NCBI RefSeq assembly: GCF_014117445.1
Contig: NZ_CP059851.1
Coordinates: 2,232,001-2,296,000 of the forward strand
Direction of reading: 5' to 3'
Length of the DNA: 64,000 nt
Source: Sandaracinobacteroides saxicola
GTDB lineage: Bacteria > Pseudomonadota > Alphaproteobacteria > Sphingomonadales > Sphingomonadaceae
Within the stretch, counting starts at the first letter, position 1, and each line of letters begins with the position of its first letter. The notes beneath the pieces were generated by a model, which was not told where the DNA came from, ran no database searches, and was given only the letters and a program-made list of their open reading frames with translations. Position numbers and translations under genes: made by a program. Below are positions 22,765 through 27,139 of this stretch, one piece after another.

Positions 22765-23609
22765 GGTTCATCACCCGGGTGCTGGCGCTGCTGGCGCTCG
22801 GACTCATCCTGCTTCTCGGCAAGGGCGTCTGGAACGCCACGCGCGATCCCGTCGTCGTCCGCGCCACGATCCCCGTTGCCGGCCTCACCCGCCCGGTCAC
22901 GGTCGCGCTGCTGTCGGACACCCACAGCGGCCACCCCGACATGCCGCGTGCCCGGCTGGAGCGCATTGTCGCCCAGGCGAACGCGCTCCGCCCCGACCTC
23001 ATCCTGCTTGCCGGCGACTATCATGGCGGCAAGACGCTCGACTGGCCCCGCACCAAACTGGAAACCGCGCTGAACCCTTTCGCCGCGCTGCGCGCCCCGC
23101 TGGGCGTCTTCGCCGTGCTCGGCAACCATGATGAACCCGGCTGGACCCGCTGGGTGCTCCGGCGGCAGGGGGGCACCCCGCGCCTGCTGGTCAACGAAAC
23201 GGTCGATCTCGGTCCATTGCTCCTTGGCGGCGCCGACAGCCTCAGCCGATCCGTGATGGTGCAAAGGATGTTTCCGGCACGGCATGGTCGGAAGCCACGC
23301 CTGCTGCTTGTGCACGAGCCGGACTATTGGCGATGGGCGCCGAACATCGCTGTCGATCTCACCCTGTCCGGACACACCCATGGCGGCCAGATCGTGTTGC
23401 CGCTGGTCGGCACGCCCTGGGAATGGTTCACCGGCCCGATGGGCTGCCGTCGCGGCCTCTGCACCGCCGACAACCATCGCATCTTCATTACCAGCGGCGT
23501 CGGCACCAGCTGGCTGCCGGTCCGCTTCGGCGTCCCCCCCGAAATCGCGCTGCTCACGCTCACCCCTCTCCCGGATGCGGGAGAGGGAGGCGACAATCCG
23601 CCTAAATGA
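22761..23609 (+). CDS. Membrane-anchored metallophosphoesterase (YkuE/YaeI-like)
   Basis: A 282-residue calcineurin-like phosphoesterase with an N-terminal membrane anchor. All metal-ligand blocks are present: SDTHSGH, AGDYH, GNHDE and SGHTHGGQ. Family members with this layout cleave phosphodiesters, including lipid A precursors or lipids. The last ~15 residues (TPLPDAGEGGDNPPK) come from a hairpin repeat that runs into the 3' end. They overlap the next, convergent gene by 8 bp. Confidence 0.88.
   Translation: MRFITRVLALLALGLILLLGKGVWNATRDPVVVRATIPVAGLTRPVTVALLSDTHSGHPDMPRARLERIVAQANALRPDLILLAGDYHGGKTLDWPRTKLETALNPFAALRAPLGVFAVLGNHDEPGWTRWVLRRQGGTPRLLVNETVDLGPLLLGGADSLSRSVMVQRMFPARHGRKPRLLLVHEPDYWRWAPNIAVDLTLSGHTHGGQIVLPLVGTPWEWFTGPMGCRRGLCTADNHRIFITSGVGTSWLPVRFGVPPEIALLTLTPLPDAGEGGDNPPK
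23564..23587. repeat. Hairpin repeat forming the 3' end of the phosphoesterase gene
   Basis: CCCTCTCCCG-gatg-CGGGAGAGGG followed by AGGCGAC, the first half of the double-hairpin repeat family found elsewhere in the window. It encodes part of the C-terminus. Confidence 0.65.
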
Positions 23610-23823
23610 TCCCGCCGCCCATCATCAGCCGCACCACCCCGATCACGATCACCACAATGTTCAGGTTGCGCCCGGCCTTGCCGTCCGCCATCGCGCCCAC
23701 CGCCAGGCCCACCAGCGCGATCGGGATCACCAGCCAATAGGCCCAGCCGAGGAAGGGCAGGAAGGCCGGAATCGCGAACAAGAGCGCGAACAGGCCGATG
23801 AAAATGGAAATGATGTTCAACAT
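23602..23823 (-). CDS. Small membrane protein
   Basis: A 73-residue protein made almost entirely of two or three hydrophobic segments (MLNIISIFIGLFALLFAIPAF, WLVIPIALVGLAVGAMAD, NIVVIVIGVVRLMMGGG). It is predicted to sit in the inner membrane. The function is unknown. It is divergent from the type III polyketide synthase gene, whose start lies 100 bp away. Confidence 0.7.
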   Translation of the reverse strand: MLNIISIFIGLFALLFAIPAFLPFLGWAYWLVIPIALVGLAVGAMADGKAGRNLNIVVIVIGVVRLMMGGGII

Positions 23824-23922
23824 GACCGGGAATGTGGCGCAGCCGATGCCGCACCACAAGGGGCGGCGCTGGCAACCCCGCGCCATCTGTGCCATCAGGC
23901 GTGTGGGGAGCCAGGAGAACGC

Positions 23923-25002
23923 ATGACTGTCGCCCATCTCAACGCCGTCGCCACCGCCAACCCGCCGCACGATGTCCACCGCGCCTTCGAAACCTTCGTC
24001 GAAGGCCTGCTGAACGAACGGCGGGACAAGGCGCTGTTCCGCCGCATGGCCGGCCGGTCGGGCATCGAGCATCGTTACAGCTTCTTCGAGCCGGTCTATG
24101 ACCCCAACGGCTTCGTCGCCGACCGCGAGGGCTTCTACACGCCCGGCGCCTTCCCCCCCACCTCCAAACGCATGGCGCGCTACGCCGCCACCGCGCCCGG
24201 CCTCGCCGCCGACGCCATCGCCAAACTGGATCTCGACCCCGAAAGCATCACCCATCTGGTGGTCGCCAGCTGCACCGGCTTCATGGCTCCCGGCCTCGAC
24301 CAGGTCATCGTCGAGAAAACCGGCATGAACCCCGGCGTCGAGCGCAGCGTGCTCGGCTTCATGGGCTGCTACGCTGCGGTGAACAGCCTGCGCACCGCCC
24401 ATCACATCGTCCGCTCCACGCCCGACGCGCGCGTGCTCGTCGTCAACCTCGAACTGTGCAGCCTGCATTTCCAGGACGTGCCCGACCTCGAACGGCTGCT
24501 GTCGATGCTGCTGTTCGGCGACGGTGCCACCGCCGCGCTCGTCACCGCCGACGCCAGCGGCCTCGCGCTCACCGATTTCCGTGCCGTGGCACTCCCCGAC
24601 AGCGCCGGCCTCATCACCTGGGACGTCGGCGACAGCGGTTTCGACATGCATCTGTCGGGCGAGGTGCCGCAGCGCATCCAGAAGGCGATGGCCGCCGAAC
24701 TCGCCCGCAACGACGATGGCGGCATCCTGCGCGGCCAGCGGCCCGAGGATTATCCGATCTGGGCGGTGCATGCCGGCGGCCGCGCCATCCTCGACGCGGT
24801 CGAAACCGGCCTCGGCCTGGGCGCCACCGCGCTGCAACGCTCCCGCGACGTGCTGCGCGAATTCGGCAACATGAGCAGCGCGACGCTGATGTTCGTGCTT
24901 GCCCGCATCCTCGCCAGCCGGCCGGCGTCCGACCAGGCCGGCCTCGGCATGGCATTCGGCCCCGGGCTCGCGGCGGAAAGCTTCCGCTTCCGCACCGTGT
25001 GA
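23923..25002 (+). CDS. Type III polyketide synthase
   Basis: A 359-residue chalcone-synthase-fold enzyme. It condenses an acyl-CoA starter with malonyl-CoA units without a carrier protein. The catalytic triad is in place: Cys149 (VLGFMGCYAA), His283 (AVHAGGRAIL) and Asn316 (EFGNMSSAT). Family marks are LVVASCTGF and LFGDGATAA. CCAGGAGAAC precedes the ATG. It is the first of three genes that overlap by GTGA and ATGA, followed by a methyltransferase and an FAD oxidoreductase. This is the same order as srsABC for phenolic lipids in Streptomyces. The product here is unknown. Confidence 0.92.
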   Translation: MTVAHLNAVATANPPHDVHRAFETFVEGLLNERRDKALFRRMAGRSGIEHRYSFFEPVYDPNGFVADREGFYTPGAFPPTSKRMARYAATAPGLAADAIAKLDLDPESITHLVVASCTGFMAPGLDQVIVEKTGMNPGVERSVLGFMGCYAAVNSLRTAHHIVRSTPDARVLVVNLELCSLHFQDVPDLERLLSMLLFGDGATAALVTADASGLALTDFRAVALPDSAGLITWDVGDSGFDMHLSGEVPQRIQKAMAAELARNDDGGILRGQRPEDYPIWAVHAGGRAILDAVETGLGLGATALQRSRDVLREFGNMSSATLMFVLARILASRPASDQAGLGMAFGPGLAAESFRFRTV

Positions 25003-25709
25003 GCCGGCCCGATTTCACCGCCCGCGCCACCGAGGCGGAGTGGATGGACACGCATGACGTGTCCGAGGCCGACTTCGCCGCCTGCCTGCGCGACCTGGAG
25101 GCGGTGAACGCCCTCACCTTCGCCGCCCCGCCCACCCTCGGCTTCCTGTCCCGCGCCACCGCCGGCTGGGAACCCGGCCGGCCTCTGCGCGTCCTCGATT
25201 GCGGCAGCGGCCAGGGCGGCATGCTCCGCCGCATCCACCGCTGGGCGACCGCGAAAGGCTTCGTGCCCGATCTCGTGGGGGTCGACCTCAACCCCCGCAG
25301 CCGCGCCGCGGCCCTCGCCGCCACGCCGGCGGACATGGCCATCGAATGGCGCACCACCGACATCTTCGACGTTCAGGCCGACGACGGCTTCGATGTCATC
25401 ATCAGCGCGCTGTTCGCCCACCATCTCGACGATGCCGACCTGCCCCGCTTCCTGCGCTGGATGGAGGCGACCGCCGCGCGGGGCTGGTTCATCAACGACC
25501 TGCACCGCCACTGGTTCGCCTGGGGCGGCTTCACGCTGCTCTCCCAGGCGATGCGCTGGCACCGCTTCGTCCGCCACGACGGCCCGCTCAGCGTCCGCCG
25601 CGCCTTCGTTTCCGCCGACTGGCGGCGACTGCTCGCCGAGGCCGGCATCGCCGACGCAACGCTGCGCTGGCACCCGCTGTTCCGCCTCTGCGTCAGCCGC
25701 CTGAAATGA
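24999..25709 (+). CDS. SAM-dependent methyltransferase of the type III PKS cluster
   Basis: A 236-residue class I methyltransferase with motif I LRVLDCGSGQGGMLRRI, an acidic residue at the end of strand 2 (LVGVDLNP) and the following DIFDVQADDGFDVIISALFAHHL. It likely methylates the polyketide (O- or C-methylation) made by the upstream enzyme. GTG at 24999 overlaps the PKS stop codon and the gene's own stop overlaps the next start, so the three proteins should be made together. Confidence 0.88.
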   Translation: MSRPDFTARATEAEWMDTHDVSEADFAACLRDLEAVNALTFAAPPTLGFLSRATAGWEPGRPLRVLDCGSGQGGMLRRIHRWATAKGFVPDLVGVDLNPRSRAAALAATPADMAIEWRTTDIFDVQADDGFDVIISALFAHHLDDADLPRFLRWMEATAARGWFINDLHRHWFAWGGFTLLSQAMRWHRFVRHDGPLSVRRAFVSADWRRLLAEAGIADATLRWHPLFRLCVSRLK

Positions 25710-26845
25710 ACGGGACGCTGATCATCGGCGGCGGCCTCGCCGGCGCCGCCAGCGCCGCCTTGCTGGCGAAGGCCGGCCAACGCGTCACGCTCTGGGAACG
25801 CGAACGCCACCCCCACCACAAGGTCTGCGGCGAGTTCCTGAGCGGCGAGGCGGTCGCCTGGCTGCGCACCCTCGACATCGACGTCACCGCGCTGGGCGCC
25901 TCGCACCTCACCCATGTGCGCGTCACCAGCGGCAGCCGCGCCGTCGCCGCGAAACTGCCCTTCGCCGCCGCCGGCCTCTCCCGCCGTGTCCTGGACGAAG
26001 CCCTGCTCGACCGCGCCGCCGCGCTGGGTGCGGAGGTGGAACGCGGCGTCACCGCGCGCGAGATCGCCGGCGACAGCGTGCAGTCCAGCCATGGCAGCGT
26101 GGCGCCCGCCCGCATCCTGCTGGCCACCGGCAAGCATGAACTGCGCGGCGCCCGCCGCGATTCCGCCGGCACCCTGAACGGCCTGGTCGGCTTCAAGACC
26201 CACCTGCGCCTGCTGCCCGGCCAGCGCGCCGCGCTCGCCGGCCATGTCGAACTCCACCTCTTCCCGGGCGGCTATGCCGGCCTTCAGATGGTGGAGCGCG
26301 ACGCCGCCAACCTGTGCCTGCTGCTCTCGCCGGAAAGGCTCGCCGCCAGCGGGGGCAGCCTCGATGGCGTGATCGACGGCTTCGTCGCCGACGCCCCGCT
26401 GCTCGCCGCCCGGCTCCATGGCGCGACTGCCCTGTTCGACCGCCCGCTCGCCATCTCCGGCGTGCCCTATGGCTTTCTGCACCGCGCCGCGCCCGGCGAA
26501 ACCCTGTTCCGCCTGGGCGACCAGGCCGCCGTCATCCCCAGCTTCTGCGGCGATGGCATGGCGATCGCGCTGCACAGCGCCCGGCTGGCGGCGAACGCGT
26601 TGCTGCTCGGCCAGCCACCGGCTGCCTATCATGATCAGGTTGAACGCGACGTCGGCCGCCCGGTGCGGCTTGCCGCGCGGGCGCAGCGGCTGGTCGGCAC
26701 CGGCGGCAGCGGCCACCCCCGCCTGCTGTCGCTCGCGGCCCTCTGGCCCGGGTCGCTGGCGCTCGCCGCCCGCCTCACCCGCGTCCCCGGCTCCGCGCTC
26801 CGCCGTGCCGGGCTGGTACAGGACACCCGGCCACCCCCTCGGTGA
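25706..26845 (+). CDS. FAD-dependent oxidoreductase of the type III PKS cluster
   Basis: A 379-residue flavoprotein of the geranylgeranyl-reductase/aromatic hydroxylase superfamily. The dinucleotide-binding motif TLIIGGGLAGAASAALLAKAG is at the very N-terminus. HKVCGEFLSGEA is the second FAD segment and FRLGDQAAVIPSFCGDGMAIALHSA the third. It probably hydroxylates or oxidises the methylated polyketide ring. The ATG overlaps the methyltransferase stop. Confidence 0.88.
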   Translation: MNGTLIIGGGLAGAASAALLAKAGQRVTLWERERHPHHKVCGEFLSGEAVAWLRTLDIDVTALGASHLTHVRVTSGSRAVAAKLPFAAAGLSRRVLDEALLDRAAALGAEVERGVTAREIAGDSVQSSHGSVAPARILLATGKHELRGARRDSAGTLNGLVGFKTHLRLLPGQRAALAGHVELHLFPGGYAGLQMVERDAANLCLLLSPERLAASGGSLDGVIDGFVADAPLLAARLHGATALFDRPLAISGVPYGFLHRAAPGETLFRLGDQAAVIPSFCGDGMAIALHSARLAANALLLGQPPAAYHDQVERDVGRPVRLAARAQRLVGTGGSGHPRLLSLAALWPGSLALAARLTRVPGSALRRAGLVQDTRPPPR

Positions 26846-26866: not shown

Positions 26867-27139
26867 TTACTTCAGATGCTTGGCCAGATACTTGTTCATT
26901 TCGAACATCGTCACCTTGTCCTTGCCGTCGAAGATCGGCTTCAGCTTGCCATCCGCCACGATGACGCGCTTGTCCTTGTCATCCTGCAGTTTGTGCGCCT
27001 TGATATAATCCCATACCTTCGACACCACCTGGCCACGCGGCAGCTTGTCGGCCCCCACGATCGCCGCCAGGTCCTTCGACGGGGTCAGCGGCGTTTGCAG
27101 TGCATTGGGCTTCTTTTCGGCGGTTTTGCTGTCGGCCAT
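26867..27139 (-). CDS. SWIB/MDM2 domain protein
   Basis: A 90-residue basic protein that is little more than one SWIB domain (LTPSKDLAAIVGADKLPRGQ, VSKVWDYIKAHKLQ, MFEMNKYLAKHLK). SWIB domains occur in eukaryotic chromatin remodelling factors. Stand-alone forms are found in chlamydiae, where one is a fusion with topoisomerase I, and in several alphaproteobacteria. A DNA-associated role is inferred. It has its own transcription unit, convergent with the PKS cluster. Confidence 0.9.
   Translation of the reverse strand: MADSKTAEKKPNALQTPLTPSKDLAAIVGADKLPRGQVVSKVWDYIKAHKLQDDKDKRVIVADGKLKPIFDGKDKVTMFEMNKYLAKHLK

Follow-up and report, generated by a model that had tools for sequence, protein, structure and literature searches.

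A type III polyketide synthase operon of Sandaracinobacteroides saxicola whose closest relatives are hierridin-like gene clusters

We analysed a 64,000-nucleotide stretch of the Sandaracinobacteroides saxicola genome (assembly GCF_014117445.1, contig NZ_CP059851.1, positions 2,232,001 to 2,296,000 of the forward strand; hereafter the window, within which all positions are counted). Positions 23923-26845 carry a compact operon for a type III polyketide synthase (PKS), a class I S-adenosylmethionine (SAM)-dependent methyltransferase and a flavin adenine dinucleotide (FAD)-dependent oxidoreductase, here called the flavoprotein:

23824-23922, + strand: probable operon 5' region, carrying a ribosome-binding-like AGGAGA motif near the PKS ATG
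23923-25002, + strand: type III PKS, 359 amino acids, from its open reading frame and Pfam
24999-25709, + strand: class I SAM-dependent methyltransferase, 236 amino acids, GTG start, PRK06202 family
25706-26845, + strand: FAD-dependent oxidoreductase, 379 amino acids, with the fold of flavin halogenases, geranylgeranyl reductases and aromatic hydroxylases (p-hydroxybenzoate hydroxylase)

The genes follow one another without gaps, and each junction is a four-base overlap: the PKS stop codon and the GTG start of the methyltransferase share GTGA, and the methyltransferase stop codon and the ATG of the flavoprotein share ATGA. The open reading frames, Pfam matches and overlaps thus bear out the extent, strand and gene order proposed in an earlier reading of the DNA without database searches (the sequence-only reading). 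The guanine-plus-cytosine content by codon position (0.70/0.49/0.89 for the PKS, 0.71/0.53/0.93 for the methyltransferase and 0.79/0.55/0.90 for the flavoprotein) is typical of real genes in all three cases. The last base of the AGGAGA motif lies four bases 5' of the PKS ATG. A consensus scan of the region 5' of the operon found no sigma-70-like promoter and a terminator scan likewise gave no match, negatives that carry little information; a PHROGs search returned none.

The PKS matches the N and C domains of the chalcone/stilbene synthase family in Pfam (2.5e-20 and 1.7e-22), and its C149, H283 and N316 align with C175, H313 and N346 of PKS18. It therefore has the two domains and the complete Cys-His-Asn triad of a type III PKS, the triad being the one that the sequence-only reading had named. 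It does not qualify as DpgA (NF042429), scoring 114.9 bits against a curated cut-off of 425. The residues of interest, located by alignment to PKS18, are:

24367-24369, + strand: catalytic Cys149
24769-24771, + strand: catalytic His283
24868-24870, + strand: catalytic Asn316
24619-24621, + strand: Trp233, opposite L266 of PKS18

Trp233 is the putative counterpart of ArsB Trp281 and ArsC Gly284, because the nine-residue spacing to Met293 of ArsC matches that between W233 and M242 in the window enzyme; this Trp/Gly switch is reported to determine whether ArsB and ArsC form resorcinols or pyrones (PMC6274091). Among 45 alpha-type PKSs (the type to which the window enzyme belongs), C117, C149 and W233 are present in all 45, M242 in 43, and the His and Asn of the triad in 44, the sole exception being a broken gene (L228). 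C117, W233 and M242 are common to 15 of 15 cyanobacterial and six of six planctomycete ABC-type PKSs. Eight SrsA-type and three Bps-type sequences keep the Trp and have S, T or V in place of C117 and V, L or I in place of M242. We also observed that Ala replaces Pro after the catalytic His (HAGG for HPGG; window 24769-24774) in 30 of the 45 alpha-type PKSs, the window enzyme included, as it does in the solved chain 1u0m, used as the THNS row.

The methyltransferase matches a class I methyltransferase family in Pfam (4.7e-10), and NCBIfam yields a single family, the unnamed PRK06202 (132 bits against a cut-off of 243), which is also matched by all 36 methyltransferases from the loci used below for profiles. 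Residues invariant in this set include H141-H142, D167 and R170. A structural model (pLDDT 96.4) has as its top fold matches the C-methyltransferases NovO (Z 20.6, root-mean-square deviation (rmsd) 2.6 over 202 residues) and CouO (Z 20.1, rmsd 2.8 over 205); by sequence profile NovO is a weak match (5e-5). The flavoprotein matches FAD-binding families in Pfam (best 1.7e-7), and its top NCBIfam match is the geranylgeranyl reductase superfamily (2.2e-20; 73.5 bits, below the cut-off of 158.8). Its model (pLDDT 93.8) is closest in fold to FasV (Z 35.6, rmsd 3.0 over 356), followed by PltA, a Cytophaga flavoprotein, ChlB4 and Bmp2. Invariant in 36 flavoproteins are the glycines of GxGxxG, the C and G of KVCGE, R93 and D97, Y190, G192, G271-D272, G282 and G284. 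The S. saxicola genome holds one such flavoprotein (next match 1.8e-4) and one such PKS; the second PKS match (E 4e-5) is probably a KAS III-type enzyme.

We surveyed the genes beside related PKS genes with profiles of the methyltransferase and the flavoprotein. These profiles derive from 36 loci, of which 23 are alphaproteobacterial or verrucomicrobial, and they include the window proteins, so that 23 of 44 window-type loci, two of 15 cyanobacterial loci plus L054, four of 11 planctomycete, five of 18 Bacteroidota and one of two Cohnella loci match by construction; 39 loci omitted from the main test were tested separately afterwards. Window-type loci (44, the window among them) are those with a best PKS match of 48% identity or more; some are close relatives, and not all are independent. 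Because both partner genes lie downstream on the PKS strand in 39 of these 44, the arrangement of the trio is not due to chance. In two more (Novosphingobium US6-1 and PP1Y) the methyltransferase gene lies upstream on the other strand and the flavoprotein gene downstream, two have the flavoprotein without the methyltransferase, and one has neither. The flavoprotein is thus present in 43 of 44 loci and the methyltransferase in 41 by tblastn, 41 by profile and 42 by clustering of open reading frames. With two gammaproteobacterial loci (L329 and L330; PKS 49-50% identical), which have the flavoprotein gene and no methyltransferase gene on that strand, the total becomes 39 of 46. Signs of decay or loss of the module are a broken PKS gene with no methyltransferase (L228), a locus without the methyltransferase (L233) and one, from Microvirga rosea (L032), with neither partner nearby.

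Both partner genes adjoin the PKS gene well beyond the window's own group: in 16 of 17 cyanobacterial, 10 of 16 planctomycete and 17 of 20 Bacteroidota loci, beside 41 of the 44 window-type loci. Fifteen of 15 cyanobacterial loci (Vulcanococcus L077 and 14 belonging to the same order as the L054 genome) read methyltransferase-flavoprotein-PKS; cyanobacterial L054 itself has the window's order, and L285, with a distant PKS, has neither partner. Eight of 11 planctomycete loci have the order methyltransferase-flavoprotein-PKS, two the window's order (L236 and L243) and one neither gene; five further planctomycete loci, L247 among them, whose PKSs are 27-33% identical, lack the full pair. Among 18 Bacteroidota loci, seven have both genes downstream, eight read flavoprotein-PKS-methyltransferase, one has the methyltransferase only and two have neither; both Cohnella loci carry the pair. 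Nine gammaproteobacterial loci are mixed, three of them having both partners at more than 130 bits, save for a 44-bit flavoprotein match at L325. In all 11 actinobacterial and spirochaete loci of a further set the methyltransferase lies near the PKS, with the flavoprotein profile scoring 26-49 bits in eight and missing three. Ten actinobacterial loci with a methyltransferase and a weak or absent flavoprotein match (L057, L060, L061, L062, L068, L074-L076, L078 and L251) look like a two-gene or differently completed variant. Of the 39 loci tested separately, L054, L097 and L100 have both partners, L249 and L292 the flavoprotein only (140-152 bits) and L247 a methyltransferase (144 bits) with a 41-bit flavoprotein match, the rest scoring 33 bits or less. 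The pair lies upstream of the PKS gene in the Flavobacteriaceae loci L097 and L100 (196-199 and 327-347 bits), and on a Psychrobacter urativorans plasmid (L289) a flavoprotein-methyltransferase pair on the opposite strand faces the PKS gene, another rearrangement of the trio. Pairwise distances among the three proteins are correlated over the 36 loci (r 0.89-0.92, with none of 999 permutations as high) and within the 23 alphaproteobacterial and verrucomicrobial loci (0.57-0.79); the three genes have therefore largely been inherited together.

The sequence-only reading had called for a phylogeny of the PKS against ArsB, SrsA and PhlD types. The trees that we built have no ArsB, ArsC, PhlD, true HidC or true SrsA, and known types are represented by proxies defined by operon structure: for SrsA, PKS11 and four actinobacterial PKSs linked to an isoprenylcysteine-carboxyl-methyltransferase (ICMT), and for HidABC of Cyanobium LEGE 06113, the methyltransferase-flavoprotein-PKS loci from the order of the L054 genome and Vulcanococcus L077. 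A quick tree had 108 sequences; a careful tree had 76, of which 71 came from the quick tree and five were gammaproteobacterial additions, the 37 omitted sequences including L097, L100, L285 and distant planctomycete PKSs. In the careful tree the window PKS falls in a clade of 24 (22 alphaproteobacterial, one verrucomicrobial and one gammaproteobacterial; support 100/98), nested in a clade of 60 (100/99) with HidC-type cyanobacterial and planctomycete PKSs and with Bacteroidota, gammaproteobacterial and Microbacterium-type enzymes. ICMT-linked, PKS11, Bps-type, THNS and CylI sequences lie outside the clade of 60. In the quick tree the window clade has 30 members (support 96) and the ICMT/Bps/PKS11 side 31 (support 98). 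Forcing the window clade together with SrsA/PKS11-like sequences lowers the log-likelihood (lnL) by 141 and is rejected by the approximately unbiased (AU) test (p-AU 7e-89); the ICMT-linked sequences do not form one clade, and the test was therefore limited to the SrsA/PKS11-like ones. Forcing it together with HidC-type sequences costs 5 lnL units (p 0.29), which is not the best tree and is not rejected. Measured against proxies, then, the window PKS is not SrsA/PKS11-like, and in the careful tree it falls into a superclade with HidC-type enzymes, a grouping that has weak support (75) in the quick tree. It groups with many sphingomonad PKSs, among them enzymes encoded by megaplasmids of Novosphingobium pentaromativorans US6-1 and Sphingobium yanoikuyae. 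Among the matches listed, the open-licence literature links none of these to a product, and the outcome that the sequence-only reading would have taken as refutation, a grouping with a well-studied sphingomonad enzyme of known product, did not occur.

The closest relatives of the window trio are hierridin-like clusters. Hierridins are made by hidABC of picocyanobacteria, in which HidA is a methyltransferase, HidB an oxidoreductase and HidC a type III PKS; as in the window, the three families are encoded by adjacent genes, and the window's order recurs in some cases, as hidC>hidA>hidB in cyanobacteria (PMC8086630) and at L054, whose proteins are 40% (PKS), 30% (methyltransferase) and 36% (flavoprotein) identical to those of the window. 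Profiles that include the window proteins match both partners beside the PKS in 15 of 15 cyanobacterial proxies, two of which contributed to the profiles. The window PKS differs from HidC in belonging to the separate, mainly alphaproteobacterial clade. Hierridin-like clusters have been described in cyanobacteria and Planctomycetota (PMC8086630, PMC10896814), and the planctomycete operon of Gimesia maris and Rhodopirellula baltica (PMC10896814) has the same three families, although its usual order, methyltransferase-flavoprotein-PKS, is unlike the window's (L236 and L243 being exceptions). Produced in C. glutamicum, the PKSs of G. maris and R. baltica (three-gene operon) and Stieleria maiorica (two-gene variant) are reported to yield pentadecyl- and/or heptadecylresorcinols, that of G. 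maris also a heptadecenyl compound, whereas two planctomycete PKSs without such an operon are reported to have given nothing detectable; co-expression of the G. maris methyltransferase and flavoprotein led to the addition of one methyl group, probably on carbon (PMC10896814).

A cluster of a type III PKS, a methyltransferase and a FAD monooxygenase, product unknown, has already been described in Acetobacteraceae (PMC8776678). This Rhodospirillales cluster very probably belongs to the window's clade, in which Roseococcus, Azospirillum and Skermanella sequences are found, but it comes from another alphaproteobacterial family and is compared there with ArsC, in passages that do not mention hierridin. 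AntiSMASH 'T3PKS' clusters, possibly of this kind, are listed without a product for Sphingomonas and Erythrobacter genomes (PMC9723273, PMC9716278, PMC8170138). The Azotobacter enzymes ArsB and ArsC resemble the proposed window PKS as long-chain alkylresorcinol and alkylpyrone synthases that accept acyl groups from acyl carrier protein (ACP), but they are supplied by the fatty acid synthase ArsA (PMC6274091), and no such gene is found among the scanned window neighbours. The trio belongs to a known kind of cluster, and the sequence-only view of a type III PKS operon of the phenolic-lipid kind with no established product in sphingomonads is borne out.

We propose, with a probability of about 0.56, that the operon is a self-contained hierridin-like system, in which the PKS would make an alkylresorcinol that is methylated and ring-hydroxylated. 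Cys149 would take up a long-chain fatty acyl group supplied as acyl-CoA or acyl-ACP; after three rounds of extension with malonyl-CoA, a decarboxylative C2-to-C7 aldol condensation would close the ring to give a 5-alkylresorcinol. The methyltransferase would then methylate the phenolic product at a ring carbon or a phenol oxygen, carbon being slightly preferred, and the flavoprotein would hydroxylate the ring, giving a methylated alkyl-hydroquinone or benzoquinone-type membrane lipid. The resorcinol, the methylation and the flavin-dependent hydroxylation are suggested by the planctomycete PKS products and the G. maris co-expression result (PMC10896814). Beyond the observed gene structure, catalytic residues, protein families, co-occurrence across phyla, tree placement and predicted folds, we infer how long the starter is, which extender is used, how cyclisation proceeds and in what order the steps run, as well as the chemistry of the two tailoring enzymes and the biological role. 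The link to the hierridin and planctomycete alkylresorcinol pathway gives a concrete product class to seek in a small, testable system.

The order of gene classes is also that of srsABC, to which the sequence-only reading had likened the operon, and on this count the likeness stands: the srsABC and mycobacterial pkq operons share with the window the functional order PKS, methyltransferase, oxidoreductase and the logic of turning a phenolic lipid into a quinone, and the window flavoprotein profile matches the downstream flavoprotein at four of 14 ICMT-type loci (120-135 bits). That the trio is a true SrsA-SrsB-SrsC cluster in a proteobacterium is nevertheless most improbable. SrsB is of the ICMT type (PMC6669644), whereas the window enzyme is a class I SAM-dependent methyltransferase; an ICMT gene adjoins the PKS gene in 14 actinobacterial loci examined, none of which has the window-type methyltransferase in the profile test; no ICMT gene lies beside the window PKS gene, the only ICMT-like match of the genome being about 0.8 Mb away and below cut-off; and the tree rejects a joint clade with the SrsA/PKS11-like group. 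We therefore regard srsABC as a functional analogy that is contradicted as homology. Alternatively, the PKS might release alkyl-alpha-pyrones by lactonisation, with the methyltransferase and flavoprotein decorating the pyrone, as in the PKS18 and Bacillus Bps systems. Related enzymes with an identical triad do yield pyrones, and ArsB and ArsC, 71% identical, owe their difference in cyclisation to one residue (PMC6274091). The equivalent of Trp233 occurs also in the pyrone makers, the Bps-type enzymes and PKS11, and we have set it aside as a marker of resorcinol formation; moreover, PKS18 falls, with an Ectocarpus enzyme, inside the clade of 60 on long branches in the careful tree only. We nonetheless hold pyrone formation to be unlikely, in view of the resorcinols made by planctomycete relatives with the same operon type (PMC10896814), the description of HidC as an alkylresorcinol synthase, the Trp rather than Gly at the presumed switch position, and the absence of the window-type methyltransferase from all 15 Bacillus/Paenibacillus-type loci in the profile test.

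Rather than hydroxylating the ring, the flavoprotein could also act as a reductase, oxidase or halogenase-like enzyme; the product would then be a methylated alkylresorcinol that has an altered side chain or carries a halogen. Its top NCBIfam match is to the geranylgeranyl reductase superfamily, below cut-off; halogenases (FasV, PltA, ChlB4 and Bmp2, Z about 34-36) come first by fold, and flavin halogenases are nearest by sequence profile, from 3.6e-31 for CmlS to 1e-22; a geranylgeranyl reductase-like protein is close on both counts (Z 32.8; 5.7e-23), with aromatic hydroxylases lower by profile (from 2e-15); and hierridin C is chlorinated, by a mechanism given as unknown (PMC8086630). Many aromatic hydroxylases, however, stand nearly as high by fold (Z 31-33), the fold searches giving no separation of halogenase, hydroxylase and reductase, and hierridin B is reported to be formed by the methyltransferase and the oxidoreductase (PMC8086630); on balance such an activity seems distinctly unlikely. 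Several further observations, together with the pyrone-like and halogenase-like features above, weigh against a hierridin-like pathway ending in ring hydroxylation. The described G. maris experiment assigns no role to the FAD protein, and HidA is reported to methylate phenolic oxygens (PMC10896814); on the structural side, the N-methyltransferase BpumL (Z 19.9) and others nearly tie with NovO and CouO. The window clade does not lie within the HidC-type clade of the careful tree, its PKSs are 33-41% identical to cyanobacterial and planctomycete enzymes of known type, the clade of 60 includes PKSs without the trio (L253 and L256), and in the quick tree the split between the two sides has only 75% support, with PKS18 and the Ectocarpus enzyme falling on the side opposite the window's. 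Because L097 and L100 carry the pair beside a PKS that falls outside the trio-type clade, far from the window's group, the pair is not strictly tied to one PKS clade and may have been re-used there with another PKS. Neither an acyl-CoA ligase gene nor an ACP gene was identified in the window neighbours scanned, and among the matches listed the open-licence literature links no product to any PKS of the window clade and reports none for a sphingomonad type III PKS.

The product of the alphaproteobacterial clade might be a C-methylated, ring-hydroxylated alkylbenzoquinone that serves as an auxiliary membrane electron carrier beside ubiquinone, the module being a mobile, phylum-crossing route to quinones from fatty acids and not from chorismate. 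This idea, which we put forward as a rather unlikely one, is drawn by analogy to polyketide quinones, for which a role as alternate electron carriers is described in mycobacteria and proposed in Streptomyces (PMC9927152). A redox-active quinone of this kind would be relevant to the way in which the quinone pool is varied in these aerobic bacteria.

We examined 59 genomes of the order (the S. saxicola genome, 34 others of its family and 24 of the order's other families), of which 24 have a PKS match at E 0.001 or better. An alpha-type PKS (at least 51% identity) occurs in 20 of the 35 family genomes, S. saxicola included, one copy (G026, L228) being broken; three more family genomes have a match of only 29-34%. 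None of the 24 genomes of other families has an alpha-type PKS, one weak match (4e-4) being found there. A scan of one genome per species (84,980 species) gave 90 relatives of the PKS, and the best 80 of these 90 belong to other Alphaproteobacteria (Microvirga, Azospirillum, Skermanella and Roseococcus), to a verrucomicrobium, and to Bacteroidota, cyanobacteria, Cohnella, actinobacteria, bacilli and others. PF02797 is matched in 12 of 200 genomes of the phylum and 20 of 368 genomes of the class of G290. Plasmid records with a PKS match number 190, with 80% query coverage in 82; the top six, at 61-62%, are replicons of Sphingobium, Novosphingobium and Microvirga, and one record annotated as PhlD matches the window PKS at 29%. 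PKSs of the clade are often plasmid-borne (in Sphingobium, Novosphingobium, Microvirga, Methylobacterium, Roseomonas, Mesorhizobium and Paracoccus), with 13 records from Sphingobium alone at 51-62% identity, a location that fits horizontal spread.

The operon is preceded by a metallophosphoesterase gene and followed by genes for a SWIB protein, a transport permease and a substrate-binding protein. Two features adjoin it directly:

23605-23823, - strand: hydrophobic open reading frame of 72 amino acids, divergent from the operon, with no Pfam match
26867-27139, - strand: SWIB/MDM2 domain protein (1e-29), directly 3' of the operon, with no sign of a part in the pathway

Beyond the trio, no gene family recurs in more than six of the 44 window-type loci (within 6 kb, or less at shorter loci, and antisense reading frames excepted). 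Apart from the ketosynthase/ACP pair of L230 described below, six neighbours scanned at five loci (L033, L036, L040, twice, L221 and L225) encode proteins of a housekeeping kind: a histidine-kinase-like ATPase fragment, isocitrate dehydrogenase, NAD synthase, topoisomerase IB, a penicillin-binding protein and an aminotransferase. With no recurring family and neighbours of this type, we rejected neighbouring genes as members of the pathway.

Finally, we note that genes for a dedicated ACP and a FabF-like ketosynthase lie directly upstream of the PKS gene at four sphingomonad loci (L286, 3560-4992; L288, 3563-4995; L287; and L230), which include N. pentaromativorans US6-1 pLA3, Novosphingobium sp. 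PP1Y Mpl and S. yanoikuyae pKN1. The three such PKSs in the careful tree form one clade (97/96). The presence of the two genes suggests that an acyl-ACP starter is made locally at these loci; the window has no such genes. A ketosynthase-like gene is also found within 0.8-2.2 kb of the ICMT-linked SrsA-type PKS gene at six actinobacterial loci (L255, L258, L259, L261, L264 and L265), its product being 30-32% identical to the ketosynthase of L288.

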